Shown here: positions 6,256 to 24,175 of the stretch, one piece after another
Position numbering within the stretch: position 1 is the stretch's first letter
Layout of the letters: each line of letters starts with the position of its first letter
DNA from: Pedosphaera parvula Ellin514
GTDB lineage: Bacteria; Verrucomicrobiota; Verrucomicrobiia; Limisphaerales; Pedosphaeraceae
Length of the DNA: 52,197 nucleotides
Reading direction: 5' to 3'
Assembly (NCBI RefSeq): GCF_000172555.1
Contig: NZ_ABOX02000053.1
Span: 1-52,197, forward strand
The notes under the pieces: generated by a model
Database searches by the model: none
The model's input: the letters and a program-made list of their open reading frames with translations, nothing else
Told to the model about the DNA's origin: nothing
Program-made: the position numbers and the translations under genes

Positions 6256-7020
6256 ATGGTATTCAACTTCGTTCGTCTGGCCATCGTGATTGTGCTTGGA
6301 GTGTTTTCAGTCGCAGCGGCCCAAGCGCAAGGGCAGATCCCGGACACCGAGGATTGGAATTTTCGCCTCGGCATCCCTATTTGGGCTGCCGGTACCCACG
6401 GCACCATTGGCGCTTTCAACCGGAAAGTACACCTCGACCAGAGCTTCATCGACACTCTCGACTCCCTGGATTTTGCCGCGGCGCTGAACCTGGAAGTCCG
6501 CAAGGACCGCTGGTTGTTCTTCTCCGACGGCCAGTACCTCAAGATTTCTGATACTGGAGAATCCAGGGAACTGTTCCGCGGAGGTTCAGCATCATTGGGC
6601 GAAAAATTCATGATTGATGATCTCGCCATCGGCTATACCGCGTTGAAAAACGAATGCGTTTCCCTGGACCTCTTCGCCGGCGCTCAACTCTCTTATGCGG
6701 CCGCCAATGTTTCGATCAACCTTCCCACCCTAGATCGAGCCGCCTCAGCCTCCGCATTCTGGGCCGATCCCATTATCGGCGCTTACTTGAACTATCAATT
6801 TTCCAAACCGGCCGGATTCTACACCAAAGCCGATGTCGGTGGATTTCACAGCTCATCCCGACTGACCTGGCAGGTCGAGGGAGGCTTTGAATTTCCCATC
6901 GCCAGCCACTTCTACACCCGCGTCGCCTATCGCTGTCTGGCCTCCGATTTCCAGCGGCGCGCACTTTCCATCGACACTGTTGTGCGCGGGCCACAGGTCG
7001 AAATCGGCGTCCGCTTCTAA
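6256..7020 (+). CDS. Outer-membrane beta-barrel-like protein
   Basis: A 254-residue exported protein, counted from the ATG at 6256; an upstream in-frame ATG at 6247 is also possible. The signal peptide ends near AAAQAQG. The mature part alternates hydrophobic and polar residues in short strands and has many aromatic girdle residues. It ends in a strand closing with Phe (VEIGVRF), the classic C-terminal signal for BAM-dependent outer-membrane insertion. It resembles 8- to 10-strand OmpA-like or OMP_b-brl barrels by general build only. The ligand is unknown. It has no operon partner. Confidence 0.7.
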   Translation: MVFNFVRLAIVIVLGVFSVAAAQAQGQIPDTEDWNFRLGIPIWAAGTHGTIGAFNRKVHLDQSFIDTLDSLDFAAALNLEVRKDRWLFFSDGQYLKISDTGESRELFRGGSASLGEKFMIDDLAIGYTALKNECVSLDLFAGAQLSYAAANVSINLPTLDRAASASAFWADPIIGAYLNYQFSKPAGFYTKADVGGFHSSSRLTWQVEGGFEFPIASHFYTRVAYRCLASDFQRRALSIDTVVRGPQVEIGVRF

Positions 7021-14981: not shown

Positions 14982-16505
14982 TTAATTCTCAGGATCAAAT
15001 CCGGGGCTGCTCGCTTGCTGTGCTGCAGCTTCCACCTCCTGCGCAGAAGCAGAGCGTGGCCAGACCAGATCCGTTCCCGGTTGATTGCCAACACGCGCTG
15101 AAAATCGCCGCCTTCCGGCCAAGGTCATCTGACCTTGGTTATCAACGCAGTCCAACCCAATCGAATAGAGAATAAAGTGGCTATCCGCTGTGCGGCTGTA
15201 ACGGAGAGGTTTCCCATCCATGAAATCAATTGCTGGAGTTTTGAGAAACGCAGGCATCAGTGAATCGAGTGCTTCCGGATAGGCTCCATTCCGGAGGCGG
15301 TAGCGTTCAACTGCCAGCGCTGTAATGAGCATTCGTCGTCTTGCTTCTGCAGCGGATGCCCGCCCCAGCAGGGTTAAGCCACCACCCTGAAAGCCAATGC
15401 CCATCTGTCTCAGGTTCAAAAGCGATTGTATCCTCGATCTTTTTTGCCTGGTCACGAAAGGAATGAGATTGGTCACACCGGGGAGTGGGCGCATTTCCAA
15501 CCAGGTAGCGGATTTAACAGCACGCTGCAGTTCAAGCTCACGATCACGATAGTAAAGCATCAATTGATTTTCATCCTCATAAGAACCTTTACGACGATAC
15601 TGGATTTGCTGGAAAAACCAGGTCATGCCATTCCAAGTATCTCTTGGTGAGCGAATTGTCTGTGCAACAATTTGACCCGGACCTGGATCGAGAGACTCCT
15701 CCCGCTCCAACTGGCAAAGCACAGCTGCATTCGCCCGTGACAACGCGACGGTTTCAGGGAGCCCGTTAAAATAATCAACTGACTCCCACTCCTGTTGCAA
15801 CCGGGCAAGCTGGTCGTCGCTCCAGGCATTCGTTTGCAGTGCCTGCCAGATTGTATTTTCGGCAATTGTAGCGGAGGCAATGCGCACGAGGTGTGTGATG
15901 TCCACAGGTTCGGGCTTCCAGGCAGTGGTCAGACGAGTCAGAGCCAGCAAATTCGTGTAGGCTTCCAATGGCTTTCCATCATGCAGTTCCAGGGAAGTGC
16001 GAGTCGCGAGTGTCTGGGCCAGGGTTTTGACACCCGCCAGATAAGTCAGCAGCAGGGTCCCGCCTCTATTCACCGGCTCGAATTGAAATGGACCATCGAG
16101 TGCCGCCAGACAGGCGGAATCCAGAACGGAACGCTGCTCATTGAAAGCACTTTTCAGATCAGGCCAAATGTCTTTGTCTGTTTGAGGATCAGGCAACTCT
16201 GATTCCTTCCAAAGCGCAACCGCAGCATTGGTTCCAATGGATACCATCAGTTCTGGCAGATGTCGAAGACTCCGATCCTGCCCACAAAGCCATGCGGCGT
16301 TGGTGATGGCAGCGGCCCGGGCACCAAGGTCGGGCGGAACGGCAAGCTTGAACTCCTTCAATTCCAGCTTGAAACCTTGTTCCCGCAAGGAGCGTTTGGT
16401 CTGCTCAAGAGCCTTGCGCGCGCCGCTGCCCGATCGCGCCGCCAGGAATGCGCAAAGTAAAAACAACACAACTACCACCAACGCAATTTTCCAACGTAAT
16501 TTCAT
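14982..16505 (-). CDS. Signal-anchored protein of unknown function
   Basis: A 507-residue protein starting at the ATG 16505 (MKLRWKIAL); a TTG nine bases upstream is less likely. A single N-terminal helix (about residues 6-24) serves as signal anchor. The rest is predicted helical and extracytoplasmic, with repeated 'TNLLALTRLTT'-like and 'LARLQQEWESV'-like segments. A C-terminal part, 'AVERYRLRNGAYPEALDSLMP', resembles the pilin-like tail seen in many verrucomicrobial and planctomycete secreted proteins. No catalytic motif is seen. It converges with the EamA gene. Confidence 0.7.
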   Translation of the reverse strand: MKLRWKIALVVVVLFLLCAFLAARSGSGARKALEQTKRSLREQGFKLELKEFKLAVPPDLGARAAAITNAAWLCGQDRSLRHLPELMVSIGTNAAVALWKESELPDPQTDKDIWPDLKSAFNEQRSVLDSACLAALDGPFQFEPVNRGGTLLLTYLAGVKTLAQTLATRTSLELHDGKPLEAYTNLLALTRLTTAWKPEPVDITHLVRIASATIAENTIWQALQTNAWSDDQLARLQQEWESVDYFNGLPETVALSRANAAVLCQLEREESLDPGPGQIVAQTIRSPRDTWNGMTWFFQQIQYRRKGSYEDENQLMLYYRDRELELQRAVKSATWLEMRPLPGVTNLIPFVTRQKRSRIQSLLNLRQMGIGFQGGGLTLLGRASAAEARRRMLITALAVERYRLRNGAYPEALDSLMPAFLKTPAIDFMDGKPLRYSRTADSHFILYSIGLDCVDNQGQMTLAGRRRFSARVGNQPGTDLVWPRSASAQEVEAAAQQASSPGFDPEN

Positions 16506-16692
16506 GGGTCTCAAACTCTCTTTGTTATTCTGGGAGATTACGAGGGATGAGCAAAGTTTTCAATAACAGGTTCCGTGGGATTGGTGGAAAGGGGTTGGAT
16601 ACAAATGTCGCATGGGCTCACGCTCGAACAGTGACTGACGCTGTAATGATTCACCTTTATTTACAACACTTAGTATGCGGTAATGACGCGTC

Positions 16693-17661
16693 ATGAATTC
16701 CGAGCGTAGTAATAGCAATGTCTTCAACGGGATTTTATTAGGAAGTCTGGTAGGATTTGCATTCGCATTTGGCGGCTATTTGCTGCTCCGCGGCGATCAG
16801 AGAGAGTTTGGTTGGGTGATGTTTCTCCTGGTACCTTTCGTTTCCGGATTCGCGGTCGCGGCGGTAGTGCGACGCCCAGATCGCATACTCGCCTGCTGCA
16901 TCACCGGCGGCGTCCTTACGCTATCCATACTGGTTGTCACGGGGCTGGAAGGAATTGTTTGCGCCTTCATGGCGGCACCGTTAATTGCGGCCGGCATGGC
17001 CTTGGGAGCGTTCATTGGTTATCATGTGCGCGGAAAGTTTATCGATCGCAGTGGCGGACCGGGAAGCACGACCACTGTTATTTTGCTGCTCTGCCCGTTT
17101 CTGATTGCAGCTGCGGACCGGGTGGAACGTCCTTTTCGAAGTGTGCAGCAGCGGGAAACGTTCACGTCCGAGGTCATGGTATCAGGCACCCCGGAACAAG
17201 CATGGAGCTTCCTTGAAAGAATGGATCATCTGGATGGAGCCAAACCTTTCCTGCTCTCTGTTGGATTACCACTACCGCAGAAATGTGAATTGGACAAAGC
17301 TGCCGTCGGCGGCAAGCGCGTTTGCTATTTCCACAATGGGTTGATTAATCAAGAGGTGACGGAGTGGCAGCGACCGAATCACATGGGGCTGCGCATTACA
17401 GGCAGCACGCTGCCAGGGCGTCATTGGCTCTCTTTTATTGAGGCCAGCTACGAATTGTCGAGTGTGGGAAACCAGACACGTGTAGTGCGGCACACGACCA
17501 TTGGGACGCGGCTTTATCCTCGATGGTATTGGCGTCCGTTGGAGCGCTGGGGTGTTACCTCGGAGCACGAATACGTGCTCTCCAATCTGGAAAGGTGGAC
17601 CAAGGAAGCAAGGTCAGAAATCCAAGCCCCTAATCCAGAAACGGGAAACGCGAAGTTTTAA
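16693..17661 (+). CDS. Membrane-anchored SRPBCC (START-like) domain protein
   Basis: A 322-residue protein. Four hydrophobic segments fill residues 10-125 (about 13-31, 40-57, 64-80, 85-110), and a fifth lies near 120-137. A soluble domain follows (about 150-310) opening 'FTSEVMVSGTPEQAWSFLERMDHL', which fits the first strand and helix of the SRPBCC/polyketide-cyclase fold. It closes with a long amphipathic helix 'EHEYVLSNLERWTKEA'. The soluble part should bind a hydrophobic ligand near the membrane. It has no obvious operon partner. Confidence 0.65.
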   Translation: MNSERSNSNVFNGILLGSLVGFAFAFGGYLLLRGDQREFGWVMFLLVPFVSGFAVAAVVRRPDRILACCITGGVLTLSILVVTGLEGIVCAFMAAPLIAAGMALGAFIGYHVRGKFIDRSGGPGSTTTVILLLCPFLIAAADRVERPFRSVQQRETFTSEVMVSGTPEQAWSFLERMDHLDGAKPFLLSVGLPLPQKCELDKAAVGGKRVCYFHNGLINQEVTEWQRPNHMGLRITGSTLPGRHWLSFIEASYELSSVGNQTRVVRHTTIGTRLYPRWYWRPLERWGVTSEHEYVLSNLERWTKEARSEIQAPNPETGNAKF

Positions 17662-17842
17662 CGTCCTGACCAGCCTGCACGATGCTGAACACCCACTATG
17701 GACCAAGTCGAAGACAACTTTTGTCGACTGCCAAGGGAGGACGAAGGACGGGTTTTGTTAAGCTAATGTAAAATATGGCACAAGGCGGTTAAGCAATTGT
17801 AAAAGAGCTTTTCCTGGGACCGGTTCGCGCAATGATGCGGAT

Positions 17843-19222
17843 ATGGAAACCAGAAACTCCCGCAAAATGGCCGCACTGGTGGCGGCGTTTGCGTTCGGCG
17901 TATCAGTCGCACACGGGCAATTGCCCGCCGGATCTTCAATAAACATTGCTCCAGGCACGGGTCAGACGCTCGGCAGCATCACCGTGAACGATCCGGGCAA
18001 TCACGTATGGCTGCTGCAGACGTCCACTAATCTCACCGCCTGGACGGGGGTGGATACGTGGAAGATTCATAACGGAAATTATCATCTGAGTCTGAGTCGG
18101 GTGGGGTCAGGACCGGGTCTTTTTTATCGCGCCATTTACGATGAGACGCAACAGACTATATTAAGCACCACTGCAAATGCGCTGCTGCTCCCCGGAACGA
18201 ATTTCAACTACGCCGCGCCGGTGTTGCCGCCCAACTTTCTAACGGCGCCCATCATCAACCAGGACAACACCCCGGCAACGAACGTGGTGACTGATCCAGG
18301 AGCGACATTGGGGCGGGTTTTGTTTTACGATAAACGGCTTTCGACGAACCAGACAGTGTCGTGTTCGTCGTGCCATGTGGCGAAGTATGGGTTCTCGGAC
18401 CCGAACCGCTTCAGCACCGGTTTCAATGGAAGCAAGGGGACGCGCCATGCAATGGGGTTGTCGAATGCGCGGTATTATCAACGCGGGCATTTTTTCTGGG
18501 ATGAACGGGCGGCGACGCTGGAGGACCAGGTGCTGCAACCAATTCAGAACCCGATTGAAATGGGGATGACCATTCCGGCGCTTCTCCCGCGTTTGGCGGC
18601 GGAACCGTTCTACACAAATCTGTTCACGAAAGCCTTTGGCACTCCCGATGTCACCTCTGACCGGGTTTCCCGCGCGCTGGCGCAATTTGTGCGGTCGATT
18701 ATTTCAACCAAGTCCAAGTATGACGACGGTGTCGCCAGTGGTTTCGCGAATTTCACCGCACAGGAACGGCTGGGGCGGCAGATTTTTCTGGGACAGGTTG
18801 GCAATGCCACCTGCGCGGCTTGTCATGGCACGGACAATTTTGTGCCCGGACCGGTCGCTAATAACAACGGCCTCGAGTTTCCGTACGTGGATACCGGGAT
18901 TGGAGGCGTGACGGGGCGCGCGCAGGACATGGGATTGTTCAAGGTGCCTTCGTTGCGGAATATTGAACTCACCGCGCCGTATATGCATGACGGAAGGTTT
19001 GCGACGCTTGAAGAGGTGGTGGAGTTCTATAACTCCGGCGTGGTGAACAATCCGAATCTGTCACCGCCGCTGAGGACGCCACCGGGTCAGCCACCGGGCG
19101 CATTACGCTTGAATTTAACGACGGCACAGAAGGCAGCGTTGGTGGCGTTCTTGAAGACATTGACAGACACAAGCATTACGACCGATGAGAAATTTCTAGA
19201 TCCGTTTAATTATGGGAATTAA
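17843..19222 (+). CDS. Di-heme cytochrome c peroxidase (CcpA/MauG family)
   Basis: A 459-residue periplasmic enzyme expected to reduce H2O2 to water with electrons from small cytochromes. The signal peptide ends near AHGQ (about residue 26). The N-terminal heme site is C174-S-S-C177-H178 and the C-terminal one is C324-A-A-C327-H328. M381 in 'APYMHDGR' is the likely distal ligand of the high-potential heme. Residues about 27-120 are an extra module, 'WLLQTSTNLTAWTG...LFYRAIYD', that ordinary peroxidases lack. This STNL...FYRA module is common in secreted verrucomicrobial proteins. The gene converges with the sigma-fusion gene and ends before a strong hairpin. Confidence 0.9.
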   Translation: METRNSRKMAALVAAFAFGVSVAHGQLPAGSSINIAPGTGQTLGSITVNDPGNHVWLLQTSTNLTAWTGVDTWKIHNGNYHLSLSRVGSGPGLFYRAIYDETQQTILSTTANALLLPGTNFNYAAPVLPPNFLTAPIINQDNTPATNVVTDPGATLGRVLFYDKRLSTNQTVSCSSCHVAKYGFSDPNRFSTGFNGSKGTRHAMGLSNARYYQRGHFFWDERAATLEDQVLQPIQNPIEMGMTIPALLPRLAAEPFYTNLFTKAFGTPDVTSDRVSRALAQFVRSIISTKSKYDDGVASGFANFTAQERLGRQIFLGQVGNATCAACHGTDNFVPGPVANNNGLEFPYVDTGIGGVTGRAQDMGLFKVPSLRNIELTAPYMHDGRFATLEEVVEFYNSGVVNNPNLSPPLRTPPGQPPGALRLNLTTAQKAALVAFLKTLTDTSITTDEKFLDPFNYGN

Positions 19223-19235
19223 ACGGAGGATAAGG

Positions 19236-19296
19236 GAAAAATGGTTGGTTGTTGCCATGGTAAACATTGAGGAGAGGCACGGGCAACAACCAACCA
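19236..19296 (-). terminator. Hairpin terminator between convergent genes
   Basis: A perfect 15-bp stem pairs TGGTTGGTTGTTGCC (19242-19256) with GGCAACAACCAACCA (19282-19296) around a 25-base loop. On the minus strand the stem is followed by TTTTTCCC, so it should stop transcripts of the sigma-fusion gene. It may also act on the peroxidase transcript, though no T-tract follows on the plus strand. Confidence 0.75.
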
Positions 19297-19302
19297 CGCC
19301 GC

Positions 19303-22300
19303 TCATTGAGAAGTGGAAACAGAATGCGATGACCGAACCTGCACTGAACCGGTTGTGCCCGCTGGCAGAGTGAACGTGCCAAGATCGTAATCGCCAGGAG
19401 TACCGGCAGGCTCATCAGGTATGGTGATCGCTTTTGTCAGGGAAGAATTGTCGGCCACAACCTGCAATGAATAAGTGCCAGGCGTAACTGCTTCCGCCCG
19501 GAAAGTACCATCAGCAGCGAAGACAACTCCGAAGGGTCCTGAATGCTGGTTATATTCGGCGGCGGCAGCGGACTGCCAATAGTCCACGGCCCAAAGTGCG
19601 GCAGCATCAACAGTTAGATTTGAAGGTGGCCTGGAAGGTTGAGTGGTTGGGAGCAGGTTGGCAAACTCGACTTGCTTGACCCAGTTGGTTATCTGTCCGG
19701 GTGCAGCCGCGAGCTGGCCAACCACAGTTCTGCCCTTCGCGCCGACTTCCACACTGCTGGTTTCACCGGGACGAATTGTGACCAATGTGCGATGACAGAA
19801 TGGAATCCCCAGCCCCCGATTGATGTTAACACTGAACTGGCCGGGCGGCACATTTTCGAAAGCAAAGCGACCGGAGGAATCGGGCTTCACATAGAACGCA
19901 TTCCCGAGCCGGACCGAACCTTGATAATTCATTGCCTTGTCGTCCATCAACACCACGGAGTCGATGCTGTGCGAACGGGCGCTGAAAGCAACACTTCCTT
20001 CGATGCGCCCCCACGGCTGGAGCTGAAGCGCAACCGGCTCCTTAGGACTGTGGACACGCACCTTTGCGTAACCCGCCGCCGAGACGGCGACCACGGAATG
20101 CGCGCGCGGATTGGCTGGAAAGACAAACAAGCCGGCCGCATCAGCATTGGTCAGAATGCCGTATCCCAATCCCGAATCTGACATTTTGGCGCGGTCGAGC
20201 GTCACCCCGTAATCAAGTGAAAGCAGCGCTACTTGCGCATTGGCCGCAGGTTTGCCATCCGGCAGGAAAACTGTTCCGCGCACGACGTTGTCAATGGAAA
20301 CAGGCTTGAGGGCCACCTCGAGAGTGCCGGAGAAATCCGGGTTCAATTCATCGGAAATAAATGGCAGGTAACCTTCTGCTTCGATGCGAACGCGCCAGGG
20401 TTTACGGGTTTCTTCATAGAGGACCTTTACCATGCCGTTGGCTCCCTTTCTGGTGCTCCCCCTCCACCACACGGCCTCACCCGAACCTTCTCCGTAACCA
20501 GGAACGGCATTGAACGCGGCGATGGGTTGGCCGTTGTCTGAGTCCGTGACGTGGGCGGACAGGTTCAGTTCACGTTCCACCTTAATGGTGTGTTCCTGAC
20601 CGTCCGCTATCACGTGCACAGAGCGGGTATAGCACCAGCCCTCCTTCTTGGCGTAGAGCTCCAAAGTATCCTGGGGAGGTGCGGAGTTCCATTCGATGCG
20701 GCCATTGGCATCGGTTTTACTTTTCCAATCGAGCACTTGACGATGCTCCCCCCATTGTTCGAGTCCAACTGTGGCATCAGGCACCGGGGCGCCTTGATCA
20801 TCCATCACCAGCAATTTCAAGAGTGCTCCGGGACGGAGCTGGACATTCACCGGTTCCATTCCGTGCGCCACAGTAACTTTGCGATATTCAGGCGCAAAGC
20901 CATCTGCTGTGACGGTAAAATCGAATTCGTCTGATTCCAGCCCGGGAATCGAGAACTCTCCGTTCGGGCCCGCCTTTGCAAGCAATGGTTTGGTGGTGAA
21001 GGGCTCGTGGGCGATTTGGGCTCCGTGAATGGGGCGGCCAGCTTCATCGATGACATTGCCAGTCAGGGTTACACCATTCTCCATGATGGTGGTCAGAGTC
21101 CCCTTCCATAATCGTTGTATTTTTTCCCGGTTATCACCTGGATAGCTTGCTTCAATGGAAGTAACTGCAAAATCGGGATGCCTGGCTTCCAGTTCAAAGC
21201 CCGGATTCTCAGACGGAATGATGCTGGCACTCCAGTGCCCGCCGCGGTCCGATTTCGCCACCGGAGCTTTCTGAAACACTCCGACGCGTTCGCGGGGTGT
21301 CTCCCGGAATGAAGCATCGCCATTGCCGCCGAATTGAATCCAGATTTCCGCATCAGTGACAGGTCGCCCCTCCTCGTCTCGTAACCAGCCGCCGACTGAG
21401 TTGGTCACGCGCTCCAACTTGAGGGTGTATTCATTGGGTATTGGATCCGCGTCGGTTCGCCATGTGGCGTAACGCGCGCCCCAACCGGGAGCAAGCACGC
21501 CGACGTCCAAACGTCCAAGGCCATTGGGCAGCGGTACCGGGCAGGTGCCCGTTTGGTCGGTGGAAAGATCGAAGCGACTCTCCCACTTCCCGCTGTAAAC
21601 GGAGTTGATGGCGAGTTTGGCATTGGCGATGGGTTCCCCAGTGTCTTTGGCAACCACATGGAATAGAAGTGCCTTGCCTTTTACAGTGCGATTGGTTTTT
21701 CCGCTGGAGACGACTGATCTCGCCTTGGGAACTGAACTGGTCTGGGAGTTGGCAATTGTGTTGGAATTTGTGCCAACCGCTGCGCGAACAGTTGCCAAAC
21801 TTGTGGAAGGTTTCCAAATCATCATGAGCAGAAGAGCGGCGGTGCCTGCAGCGACGATGCTGGCAGCGATCTTGAGCTTTGACCACCGCCAGGCAGCCAA
21901 CGTTTCAGCAACGAGTGCAGGCAGAGTTGCAGCCGCAGCAGTTGAGGCACCCGCAACAGCCGCGGAACTGATGGAACCGGCATGAATGGTCGACGATGCC
22001 TTGGCAGCATTGGCGACGAGCGTCGAAGCCAACAAGGCGGCAGAGAGAGTAAACCCATGACTGGTGAAGAAACCGCGGAGTTTTTCGAGAGCGCGATCCA
22101 CCCGTTTCCGCGCTGCCTCCTCAGAGAATCCGAGCGCCTCGCCGACTTCGCGATGATTTCTCTCCTGCATGAAGCGGAGTAGAACGGCATTGCGATCGGT
22201 TTCGCCGAGTTGCTCAAGAGCGTCGTCAAGCAGAGGAGCGATTCGCTTCCAGGTATCATCGGGAGTGGCGCTGTGTTGCATGGCAAAGGCTTCCTGGTCT

Positions 22301-22578
22301 CGTTGTTGACGGCGGTGTTCGGTGCGCAGGGCACGAGCGGCGACAAAGCGGGTGGTGCGAAACAGCCAACCGGGAATGGCGACGCCAGGTCGCATGGTAT
22401 GAGCTTTACGGGCCAGCAAAATGAAAACGGCCTGCGTGATTTCTTCAGCGAGGTGCGGATCGCTTACCAGGCGCAAGGCACAGGAATGCACAAGGTTAAG
22501 GTTTCGTCCGACCAGGGTATGAAACGCGGTTTCGGAACCGCTTCGCGCGTAGTCTTGAATGAGTTGCCAGTCGTCCAT
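19303..22578 (-). CDS. ECF sigma factor fused to a membrane helix and carboxypeptidase-regulatory-like repeats
   Basis: One uninterrupted 1091-residue protein. Residues about 10-90 are sigma70 region 2 ('AEEITQAVFILLARKA', 'IPGWLFRTTRFVA'). Residues about 110-170 are region 4 with a helix-turn-helix ('NHREVGEALGFSEEAARKRV'). An Ala-rich linker contains a weaker hydrophobic stretch (about 177-195), and a clear membrane helix follows at about 236-255. The remaining 830 residues hold six to eight CarboxypepD_reg/SpaA-like beta-sandwiches, each opening with a 'G.P...A.V' signature such as 'DEEGRPVTDAEI', 'DEAGRPIHGAQI', 'DDQGAPVPDATV' and 'LPDGKPAANAQV'. The plan suggests a sigma factor tethered to the membrane with a periplasmic sensing region. 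No anti-sigma factor gene is adjacent. Confidence 0.88.
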   Translation of the reverse strand: MDDWQLIQDYARSGSETAFHTLVGRNLNLVHSCALRLVSDPHLAEEITQAVFILLARKAHTMRPGVAIPGWLFRTTRFVAARALRTEHRRQQRDQEAFAMQHSATPDDTWKRIAPLLDDALEQLGETDRNAVLLRFMQERNHREVGEALGFSEEAARKRVDRALEKLRGFFTSHGFTLSAALLASTLVANAAKASSTIHAGSISSAAVAGASTAAAATLPALVAETLAAWRWSKLKIAASIVAAGTAALLLMMIWKPSTSLATVRAAVGTNSNTIANSQTSSVPKARSVVSSGKTNRTVKGKALLFHVVAKDTGEPIANAKLAINSVYSGKWESRFDLSTDQTGTCPVPLPNGLGRLDVGVLAPGWGARYATWRTDADPIPNEYTLKLERVTNSVGGWLRDEEGRPVTDAEIWIQFGGNGDASFRETPRERVGVFQKAPVAKSDRGGHWSASIIPSENPGFELEARHPDFAVTSIEASYPGDNREKIQRLWKGTLTTIMENGVTLTGNVIDEAGRPIHGAQIAHEPFTTKPLLAKAGPNGEFSIPGLESDEFDFTVTADGFAPEYRKVTVAHGMEPVNVQLRPGALLKLLVMDDQGAPVPDATVGLEQWGEHRQVLDWKSKTDANGRIEWNSAPPQDTLELYAKKEGWCYTRSVHVIADGQEHTIKVERELNLSAHVTDSDNGQPIAAFNAVPGYGEGSGEAVWWRGSTRKGANGMVKVLYEETRKPWRVRIEAEGYLPFISDELNPDFSGTLEVALKPVSIDNVVRGTVFLPDGKPAANAQVALLSLDYGVTLDRAKMSDSGLGYGILTNADAAGLFVFPANPRAHSVVAVSAAGYAKVRVHSPKEPVALQLQPWGRIEGSVAFSARSHSIDSVVLMDDKAMNYQGSVRLGNAFYVKPDSSGRFAFENVPPGQFSVNINRGLGIPFCHRTLVTIRPGETSSVEVGAKGRTVVGQLAAAPGQITNWVKQVEFANLLPTTQPSRPPSNLTVDAAALWAVDYWQSAAAAEYNQHSGPFGVVFAADGTFRAEAVTPGTYSLQVVADNSSLTKAITIPDEPAGTPGDYDLGTFTLPAGTTGSVQVRSSHSVSTSQ

Positions 22579-22773
22579 GTCAGTGATGTGTTTACTATAG
22601 ATATCTCCACCGACGGCTGGAAAGCGGACAAGCTGGAAGATTTATTTTCGAAAGATGCATTTGGCCACCTGGCACGCTTAATTTCGCCTTAAAATCAGGG
22701 GTAGCGCGTTTACGTCAATTGACTCTCCTTTGCGCCAGCCGTTTCATCAATGAAAAGAGCTAAAATAATTTGA

Positions 22774-22803
22774 AGTCCTGGAGAGCGGCGCTCGTTCGTT
22801 GTA
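22774..22803 (+). promoter_or_regulatory. Putative ECF42-type promoter, copy 1
   Basis: AGTCC (22774-22778), 14 bases, then CGTTCGTTGTA (22793-22803), ending 45 bases before the VOC start at 22849. The same bipartite element with the same 14-base spacer occurs at 24321, 25374 and 28818. This copy has A instead of T in the first position of the upstream half. Confidence 0.7.
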
Positions 22804-22848
22804 TCTTGGAAAGAACGCAAACAATCAACCATTCAATTAAAGACAAAT

Positions 22849-23238
22849 ATGAGCAAACCAAAGAAATCCAAAGCTTCAAGCATCGTCTGGTTCGAAATTC
22901 CGGCCGACAACACCGCACGCGCGAAGAAATTTTACAGCTCACTATTCGGCTGGAAAATCAAAAAATTTCCCGGAATGAAGGATTATCTGCATATAGATAC
23001 GGGTGGTGCCAATGACACACCCGATGGCGGTCTGATGAACCGCATGCACAAGGACCATACCATTACCAACTACATCAGCGTTGAGTCGGTGGACAAATCG
23101 GCGGCAAAGGTCGTAAAACTCGGGGGCAATATCTGCAAGCCCAAGACTGCGGTGCCACAGATGGGTTACTTTGTCATCTGCCAGGATACGGAGAAAAACA
23201 CTTTTGCCCTCTGGGAAGTGGACGGAAAAGCAAAGTAA
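22849..23238 (+). CDS. VOC-family (glyoxalase/bleomycin-resistance fold) protein
   Basis: A 129-residue cytoplasmic protein with the paired beta-alpha-beta-beta-beta modules of the vicinal oxygen chelate fold. It opens 'SSIVWFEIPADNTARAKKFYSSLFGWKIKKFP', the typical first strand and helix, and ends 'YFVICQDTEKNTFALWEVD', where the Glu of the metal site usually lies. Function within the family (dioxygenase, isomerase, drug binding) cannot be assigned. It is preceded by promoter copy 1 and begins the sigma-ECF42 cluster. Confidence 0.85.
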   Translation: MSKPKKSKASSIVWFEIPADNTARAKKFYSSLFGWKIKKFPGMKDYLHIDTGGANDTPDGGLMNRMHKDHTITNYISVESVDKSAAKVVKLGGNICKPKTAVPQMGYFVICQDTEKNTFALWEVDGKAK

Positions 23239-23290
23239 ACGCGCTACAGAGAGTCGGTGGCGAGAATTAAGGTCACAAAAACAAGAGCGC

Positions 23291-23333
23291 TTGACAATTT
23301 GTGGACTGCCAGTGTATTTAACCATCCGGTTAA
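23291..23333 (+). promoter_or_regulatory. Sigma70-like promoter and operator of the arsR gene
   Basis: A TTGACA box (23291-23296) lies 18 bases from TATTTA (23315-23320). Overlapping the -10 is a perfect inverted repeat TTAACC-ATCC-GGTTAA (23318-23333), 10 bases before the ATG at 23344. Its position fits autorepression by the ArsR protein. The element differs completely from the four repeated cluster promoters. Confidence 0.7.
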
Positions 23334-23343
23334 TTAATAAAAG

Positions 23344-23697
23344 ATGTCCCCAGATCACCTAAGTACAACTTTCGCTGCCCTCGCCGACCCCACTCGGCGC
23401 GCGATCCTGTCCCGCCTCGCCAATGGCGAGGTCTCGGTCAAGGAGCTGGCCAGACCCTTCGATATGAGCGCTCCCGCGATCACCAAACATCTCAAGGTGC
23501 TTGAGCGCGCCAACCTCATCTCACGCGGTCGCCACGCCCAATGGCGTCCCTGCCGACTCACGGCCAAGCCAATGAAGGAGGCCATGGACTGGCTTGAGCA
23601 TTATCGACTTTTCTGGGAAGAGAGTTTCGATCGTCTCGAAGAATATTTACGGGAATTACAAGCAGAGGAGAAAAAAAATGACCGAAAGAAAAAGTAA
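23344..23697 (+). CDS. ArsR-family transcriptional repressor
   Basis: A 117-residue winged-helix regulator. 'FAALADPTRRAILSRLANGEVSVKELARPFDMSAPAITKHLKVLERANLISRGRHAQWRPCRL' carries the canonical ArsR HTH, with the recognition helix at 'SAPAITKHLKVLE', and wing. It lacks the CxC metal site of arsenic or cadmium sensors, so it belongs to the metal-independent group usually paired with SRPBCC genes. Its stop overlaps the next start by 20 bp, showing translational coupling with the SRPBCC protein. The palindrome at 23318-23333 is its likely operator. Confidence 0.92.
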   Translation: MSPDHLSTTFAALADPTRRAILSRLANGEVSVKELARPFDMSAPAITKHLKVLERANLISRGRHAQWRPCRLTAKPMKEAMDWLEHYRLFWEESFDRLEEYLRELQAEEKKNDRKKK

Positions 23698-24175
23698 TCC
23701 GGCCACAGAAACCTCCGATCGCGTTCTCCTCATCACACGCGTCTTCGATGCGCCGCCCAGCCTTGTCTTCAAAGTATGGACGCAGCCTGAATACCTGGTT
23801 CGCTGGTGGGGACGGAAGGACTTTACGCTGCCGTCCTGCGAGATGGATTTTCGTCCGGGTGGTGCCTACCGGCTTTGCATGCGCTCGCCCGAGGGCATCG
23901 ACTATTGGCTGTCAGGCGTCTATCGCGAAATCGTGGAGCCCGAGCGGATTGTTTTCACTTGGGAGCGTGAGCCGGCCGGAGACAAACCCGGAAACAGTTC
24001 AGTGGTAACCGTAACTTTTGCCGAGCATGACGGGAAAACCAAGTTTGCATTGCGTCAGGCCAACTTCGAAACGACGGAGGAACGGAACGAGTATCAGGGT
24101 GGCTGGACCGAATGCCTCGACAGTCTCTCGAATTACGTTTCAGCCAAATCCGTGAACCAGGAAGCACCGAAATGA
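23678..24175 (+). CDS. SRPBCC / AHSA1-like protein, ArsR-coupled
   Basis: A 165-residue START-like protein. The hallmark 'ITRVFDAPPSLVFKVWTQPEYLVRWWGRKDFT' and 'EMDFRPGGAYRLCMRSPEG' match the AHSA1 (activator of Hsp90 ATPase homolog 1-like) group. It closes with 'YQGGWTECLDSLSNYV', the usual C-terminal helix. The ATG at 23678 lies inside the end of arsR; longer in-frame extensions begin at a TTG deep in arsR and are rejected. It probably binds a hydrophobic ligand. In ArsR-SRPBCC pairs the ligand and physiological role are usually unknown. Confidence 0.9.
   Translation: MTERKSNPATETSDRVLLITRVFDAPPSLVFKVWTQPEYLVRWWGRKDFTLPSCEMDFRPGGAYRLCMRSPEGIDYWLSGVYREIVEPERIVFTWEREPAGDKPGNSSVVTVTFAEHDGKTKFALRQANFETTEERNEYQGGWTECLDSLSNYVSAKSVNQEAPK

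Follow-up and report, generated by a model that had tools for sequence, protein, structure and literature searches.

The gene at positions 19303–22578 of the window is predicted to encode a membrane-tethered extracytoplasmic function (ECF) sigma factor that drives its own gene, and the probability of this reading is put at about 0.6. The window is the whole stretch of Pedosphaera parvula Ellin514 DNA that was analysed (52,197 nucleotides, contig NZ_ABOX02000053.1). The gene is one of 33 paralogues in this genome. Promoter-like sites precede 31 of the 33 paralogues, and sigma region 4 covaries with the -35 element of these sites; both observations are new here. The paralogues and their covarying promoters lay beyond the view of the initial annotation of the gene, which was made from the sequence of the window.

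The gene lies on the minus strand and reads from 22578 to 19303. Its frame of 1091 amino acids opens with ATG and contains no internal stop; the plus strand contains many stops over the same positions. The coordinates in the initial annotation are right, and the strand was not stated there. Its single open frame with sigma regions 2 and 4 is borne out by Pfam and by the lack of internal stops. Sigma70_r2 and Sigma70_r4 are both above cut-off and are separated by only a short stretch, which leaves no separate region 3 domain. The protein also matches TIGR02937 (sigma70-ECF) with 70.5 bits (cut-off 42.9), and its sigma part aligns to the solved structure of the ECF sigma factor SigE (9m9d) with 46.2 bits. 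Residues 237–255 are the sole confident membrane segment by hydropathy (Kyte-Doolittle 2.15 over 19 residues), in agreement with the one clear membrane helix annotated at 236–255. Between sigma region 4 and the helix, Pfam gives no match to an anti-sigma domain, neither zinc-finger nor FecR-like, and cysteine is absent from residues 176–236. In the ectodomain, CarboxypepD_reg (PF13620) matches with 133.6 bits (curated cut-off 32.3), and five stretches are individually significant. The number of repeats is five by hidden Markov model and higher by strand count, with exact boundaries not delimited, and the earlier estimate of six to eight fits these counts. No WD40 family is among the 19 families in the Pfam result for the protein.

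The AlphaFold2 model, built from an input alignment of 16 sequences, has a mean predicted local distance difference test score (pLDDT) of 78.1 and a predicted template modelling score (pTM) of 0.45. It contains sigma helices at residues 3–173, a helix at 221–254 and strands from 303 to 1070, and residues 255–300 have a pLDDT under 50. Foldseek finds no specific match for the whole model in the PDB. The matches are general extracellular beta-sandwich proteins (pilins, adhesins and alpha-2-macroglobulin-like proteins), with TMq values of 0.05–0.12 among the 50 matches listed, and no function is inferred from them.

When the genome is searched with residues 1–163, there are 40 matches, 33 of which (the window protein included) have an E-value of 1.9e-33 or better. 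The other 32 paralogues are 40–57% identical to the query. The 33 frames are 367 to 1112 amino acids long, and one has a stop in frame of the matched stretch. The paralogues have the sigma part, linker and anchor in common and differ in the parts behind the anchor.

A two-block promoter-like site is recognised in the upstream regions of the 33 paralogues. A weight matrix was made from these sites and each paralogue was scored leave-one-out; the controls, scored with the full matrix, are 244 upstream regions of other frames of at least 200 amino acids at the same loci, some of them shadow frames. With this scoring, 31 of 33 paralogues are above the control 95th percentile and 20 of 33 are above the 99th. 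The sites in those 31 start 39–75 bases upstream of the start codon. For the window gene the score is 17.5, against a control maximum of 18.0 and a control 95th percentile of 10.2. Pairwise identity averages 0.68 over the -35 element, compared with 0.29 over the 28 bases ahead of it, which argues that the element is conserved for itself and not through recent copying. Within the window, two sites score at least 15.4, against 2.15 in shuffles, and the better one (20.1) is the gene's own promoter. In a second set of 80 sigma genes from 13 other genomes, chosen from a list of relatives in 40 genomes, the own-genome matrix places 73 genes above the control 95th percentile and 64 above the 99th; the remaining seven have no site above the 95th. 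Among orthologues with the sigma-ectodomain fusion, 11 of 14 are above the control 95th percentile.

Similarity in the -35 element tracks residues 150–166 of the helix-turn-helix (Mantel r 0.41, p 0.0005) and does not track sigma region 2 (r -0.09, p 0.89). The covariation is carried by residues 157 and 158, in the motif AA-157-158-RV, and it holds in the own genome, in the 13 other genomes and in all 14 fusion orthologues tested. In the second set, 66 of the 80 genes have a readable helix and a passing score; the 14 left out comprise eight unread helices (one also low-scoring) and six low scores. In these 66 genes, the fourth base of TGTNNN is C with K158 (43/43) and T or G with M158 (21/21). 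The sixth base is C with K157 (9/9), A with H157 (3/3) and G with R157 (23/24) or Q157 (28/30). A majority rule from the own genome, applied blind, gives the fourth base correctly in 59 of 65 genes (commonest base 44/66) and the sixth in 63 of 66 (commonest base 51/66). The final rules were completed after sight of the second set (M to T or G, H to A, V to T). Both final rules fit 31/33 own, 63/66 other-genome and 14/14 fusion-orthologue genes, compared with means of 12.4, 25.5 and 4.1 and maxima of 21, 38 and 10 in shuffled pairings. The 14 fusion orthologues are all of the aligned orthologues with upstream DNA, which L073 does not have; four of them (L061–L064) were seen before the rules were formed and the other ten were not. 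On a tree built with the helix-turn-helix left out, residue 158 switches class at least 17 times. The nearest orthologues combine KK with TGTCCC, and the window gene combines RK with TGTCCG.

In the alignment to the solved SigE structure, R157 and K158 fall on the R and S of TVRSRIHR (chain 9m9d_F). These are presumably equivalent to R171 and S172 of Escherichia coli SigE, whose motif is probably TVRSRIFR. In the sections of the SigW paper covered here, the template-strand base at -31 is described as contacted by SigE R171 and the base at -34 by S172 (PMC6713349). Residues 157 and 158 thus seem to match sigma-E residues that contact bases. With the G of TGT taken as -35, residue 157 would be paired with the sixth base, at -31, and the fourth base would be at -33, beside the reported contact of residue 158, as far as can be told from the alignment. 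The covariation is evidence that the sigma part reads DNA. An ECF-type promoter that fits the gene's own recognition helix is predicted upstream of the gene, and each sigma factor most likely drives its own gene.

A pattern modelled on the window promoter occurs once in the 7.41 Mb genome, at the promoter itself, and not in the control. This pattern is derived from the very site found, and only the lack of a second site is informative. A strict pattern centred on the -35 element has three sites, all before RK-type sigma genes (the window gene, L012 and L033). The reversed pattern also has three sites, so there is no enrichment and only the positions of the sites are informative. A looser pattern gives 21 rows, repeats included, mostly inside other open frames. 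The promoter type of the paralogue L035 (TGTCGGATT...GGGTGCTAT) has four genome sites, its own and three more, with none in the control. Two of the extra sites precede frames on the same contig that begin, by eye, with signal-peptide-like sequences; the third is on contig 16. At least one paralogue, L035, therefore seems to have targets beyond itself.

The placement of the long C-terminal part rests on charge and on homologues. A transmembrane (TM) segment is called at a hydropathy of at least 1.6 in 38 of 50 family members, a set made up of the 33 own-genome paralogues and 17 members from other genomes. Just before the helix, residues 223–237 contain 2.56 K/R and 0.16 D/E per sequence in these members, and the charges around the helix favour an N-inside orientation. 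Homologues of residues 299–1042 that lack a sigma part have signal-peptide-like starts in L045, L046, L047 and L056 (by eye). At six loci the ectodomain stands behind an M56 (BlaR1) peptidase domain, and Pfam confirms all six. Because its relatives occur on M56 proteins and behind signal peptides, the ectodomain is placed outside the cytoplasm. A module common to M56 membrane proteins and this sigma factor is most simply extracytoplasmic, and the large part of the window protein probably is too. The topology and structure predictions, proposed as a check in the initial annotation, give a single TM helix with N-inside favoured, a stalk and a beta-sandwich ectodomain. The covariation and the signal-peptide and M56 relatives agree with the plan stated there, in which a single chain holds a DNA-binding sigma factor and a large periplasmic region.

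The same plan is found over approximately 915–1070 residues in six other genomes, at 30–33% identity (relatives search, all six aligned). A scan of genome contigs with that alignment gives 32 loci, and sigma is joined to ectodomain in 17 of them; 16 of these are in a single frame and one (L084) is split across two frames. L066, L071 and L073 are apparently the same genes as L039, L042 and L040, with identical lengths and sequence starts, and the counts of six and 17 fusion relatives therefore overlap. Where the records of the relatives name a group, it is Limisphaerales, Pedosphaera or Verrucomicrobiales, and for L078 Planctomycetales. The closest (L061–L063) are 46–48% identical to the window protein. 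In the set of 40 genomes, own included, the best match has an E-value of 1e-40 or better in 27. In four of these (G010, G016, G024 and G037) it covers the ectodomain alone, and in the remaining 13 genomes the best E-values are approximately 1e-22 to 3e-4. An even draw of 145 genomes across the phylum includes 15, the own genome among them, with a match to residues 1–253 at 1e-15 or better. Two other genomes of the phylum contain family-related sigma domains within frames of 2319 and 2294 amino acids (G051:C120:11774-12532 and G157:C13:12176-12931). A family member of 239 amino acids (L149:292-1008) ends where the TM region begins and has no ectodomain.

Table 1. Coordinates of the gene, its domains and its predicted promoter in the window.
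Feature	Positions	Strand	Basis or detail
Whole gene: ECF sigma, Ala-rich linker, TM helix, stalk, beta-sandwich ectodomain	19303..22578	-	1091 aa
Sigma region 2, residues 22-89	22312..22515	-	Pfam Sigma70_r2, 40.7 bits
Sigma region 4, residues 120-168	22075..22221	-	Pfam Sigma70_r4, 40.2 bits
Codons of R157 and K158, recognition-helix residues covarying with the -35 element	22105..22110	-	Covariation; alignment to 9m9d_F
Conserved linker motif position after sigma region 4, residues 174-199	21982..22059	-	Family consensus RGVT...AL...L..N.VQAAP.GLA
TM helix, residues 237-255	21814..21870	-	Hydropathy, AlphaFold2
Predicted disordered stalk, residues 256-300	21679..21813	-	pLDDT under 50
Ectodomain, carboxypeptidase-regulatory-like beta-sandwiches, residues 301-1070	19369..21678	-	Pfam, AlphaFold2, Foldseek
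-35 element TGTCCGCTTT in the predicted promoter of the gene itself	22621..22630	-	Upstream comparison, weight matrix
-10-like element GTCGGTGGAGAT of the gene's own predicted promoter	22603..22614	-	Upstream comparison, weight matrix

The proposed mechanism takes the computed architecture, family, promoter-like site, covariation and extracytoplasmic relatives as its basis, and adds autoregulation, sensing, release and a protease as conditional steps. The sigma part would stay in the cytoplasm, anchored by one helix, and the disordered stalk would bear the long beta-sandwich ectodomain outside the inner membrane. Sigma region 4 would recognise a -35 element that is private to it and lies ahead of its own gene, and active sigma would yield more of the same protein, in a one-gene positive loop. 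Activation would most likely be an event at the ectodomain that frees the sigma part, probably through a cut in the stalk and then an in-membrane cut by an M50 (RseP-type) protease. Intramembrane proteolysis is a plausible route of release, suggested by the plan of the protein (sigma inside, one helix, stalk, outer domain), by IutY and RsgI, and by an RseP-like M50 protein in the genome (L103).

The segment after sigma region 4 is conserved in the 50 family members (G175 in 47, A195 in 44 and P196 in 46), and the window protein departs from the consensus with S at both 195 and 196. In most members, this linker resembles the end of a signal peptide, with a charged start, an uncharged core and VQA|AP (window 21982–22059). 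As a weaker idea, this conserved VQA|AP segment, similar to a signal-peptidase site or to an XAA tail of the ClpXP type, may have a part in release.

Several observations weigh against a tethered, self-regulating sigma factor that is released by proteolysis. The sites of L061–L063 score only 1.9, 7.6 and 8.7 by the own-genome matrix, below 10.2; each has TGTCCC at the aligned place. On well-supported branches alone, five pairs change in the same direction, none in the opposite direction and one without difference (p 0.0625), which is too few for significance. The promoter pattern search of the genome finds no target of the window sigma factor besides its own gene. The TM call is weak in 12 of the 50 family members, and the uncharged, Ala-rich stretches at residues 176–193 and 200–222 could also enter the membrane, with a hydropathy of 1.6 in 7/50 and 4/50, respectively. 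After the helix, K/R are as frequent as before it (2.56 per sequence), balanced by 2.3 D/E. M50 proteins are present in all 14 control genomes too.

The ectodomain could instead be the product and not the sensor, that is, a surface or periplasmic protein equipped with a sigma factor of its own, through which it sets its amount. This is a possible but unlikely alternative, to which the search for targets lends some support, the gene's own promoter being the only one recognisable for the window sigma factor. Sigma-less relatives of the ectodomain also exist as apparently secreted proteins. However, the same ectodomain is present on BlaR1-type M56 proteins, and the outer part of BlaR1 senses. The L035 promoter type is also found before neighbouring genes for other proteins, which likewise counts against this alternative.

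ToxR/CadC-type regulators work membrane-bound. Slightly less credible for the window protein is a sigma part that is likewise active while still in the membrane, with the ectodomain altering its activity without any cut. The scanned neighbours include no protease gene, the orthologues have no shared neighbour, and the only target found, the gene itself, could be reached by a tethered factor. Against this alternative, a tether would on general grounds hinder sigma from joining core RNA polymerase, and the 45-residue disordered stalk suits a protease.

A wholly cytoplasmic protein with repeats for protein contacts is improbable. It has a precedent in WD40-bearing ECF57, for which such contacts are proposed in the part of the source covered here (PMC8999054), and Tuwongella ECF sigma factors are reported in both Triton- and SDS-soluble fractions in the sections covered of another (PMC8567305). 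This alternative is opposed by the clear TM helix, the charges that favour N-inside and the occurrence of the ectodomain's relatives behind signal peptides and on M56 proteins. An assembly error or frameshift that fuses a sigma gene to a secreted-protein gene, a concern raised in the initial annotation, has practically no probability left and is rejected, since the same plan recurs in one frame in independent assemblies and nothing was found in its favour.

In the neighbourhood of the gene, six adjoining frames were scanned with Pfam (14982–24175). They are a convergent CCP_MauG cytochrome c peroxidase gene, a divergent glyoxalase-like gene, ArsR-type, AHSA1 and Polyketide_cyc2 genes, and one frame without a match. 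No anti-sigma-like gene is among these six, in line with the earlier remark that the gene has no anti-sigma partner. A conserved operon partner was considered and rejected, as no shared neighbour was found beside the orthologues. In this comparison, which used flanks of at most 6 kb that were often ended by a contig end, L064, L069 and L074 each have a single neighbour related to window genes, overlapping shadow frames aside. The window counterparts of these neighbours are all more than 9 kb from the gene, and one neighbour is common to L069 and L074. A search for plasmid relatives of the gene gave no match, and positions 18500–23500 contain no structured RNA at Rfam gathering scores.

Pfam was also run on all 32 other paralogues. 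Behind the anchor, DUF3738 is over cut-off in four (L017, L023, L026 and L032), POTRA in L024 and SecDF_P1_head in L021; these domains are counted in favour of the tethered reading. Weak matches under cut-off are GspD N0 (L030), HEAT (L031) and DUF4878 (L011 and L037), and the remaining paralogues have nothing convincing there. Six of the 33 paralogues have a pseudopilin-like gene (N_methyl) directly downstream on the same strand (L017:7476-8306, L018:7442-8500, L026:7613-8365, L027:7702-8394, L028:4343-6625 and L035:6502-7428). The genome contains 112 N_methyl matches, and the gene-wise chance of at least 6/33 is approximately 2e-5 with the gene number guessed at 6300. At L035:5651-8725, the same-strand order is sigma, pseudopilin-like gene and a small M50 (site-2 protease-like) frame; L035 is the one paralogue with an M50 match noticed nearby. 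A different ECF sigma factor, fused to a long part that is multi-membrane-spanning by eye, lies approximately 460 bases downstream of a family member (L024:8317-10587). A frame adjoining another member resembles its TM and coiled-coil part and lacks sigma (L036:5674-6486).

Among known systems, the closest comparison is with the SigI/RsgI arrays of cellulolytic clostridia, described in the parts of the sources covered here as many paralogous units per genome with autoregulated sigma genes and -35 specificity (PMC6056542, PMC12203970). Shared features are the paralogous units, a divergent outer domain on a single membrane helix, -35 specificity and autoregulation, which is predicted here. In SigI/RsgI, sigma and membrane anti-sigma are two proteins, whereas here sigma is fused straight to the anchor and no anti-sigma domain is found in the window protein. 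The other ECF comparisons rest on the sections covered of a single source (PMC8999054). IutY (ECF243), for which cleavage by Prc and RseP is reported, and ECF48, ECF52 and ECF53 share the single chain with an N-terminal sigma and a membrane part behind it; unlike them, the window protein has no zinc-finger or FecR-like Pfam match between sigma region 4 and the helix. ECF57 also has a large C-terminal extension, but its repeats are WD40-like and not carboxypeptidase-regulatory-like sandwiches. BlaR1-type M56 proteins with carboxypeptidase-regulatory-like repeats carry a homologous outer module on a membrane protein, but their inner part is an M56 protease and not a sigma factor. The family is filed here as a large variant of ECF sigma factors with C-terminal extensions that is not described in the literature searched. 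No description of it is among the matches listed (titles and beginnings of abstracts), and absence from print is not claimed.

For the family as a whole, the balance of evidence tips towards insulated one-gene circuits, up to dozens per Limisphaerales genome. Each would have its own promoter, sigma, anchor and changeable outer domain, and would be kept on its own -35 type by a two-residue code. The code proposed jointly with these circuits pairs K158 with C and M158 with T or G at the fourth base, and K157 with C, H157 with A and R157 or Q157 with G at the sixth. If this is true, the family would expand as helix and promoter drift together, and each protein's targets could be read from sequence. 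One genome would then provide approximately 33 natural sigma/promoter pairs with a simple specificity code. Such pairs would aid target prediction in uncultured Verrucomicrobiota and would be a source of sigma factors with separate promoters. The family would also represent a transmembrane signalling route without an anti-sigma factor, in which sigma itself is the tethered part, and what the outer domains sense would become testable gene by gene.

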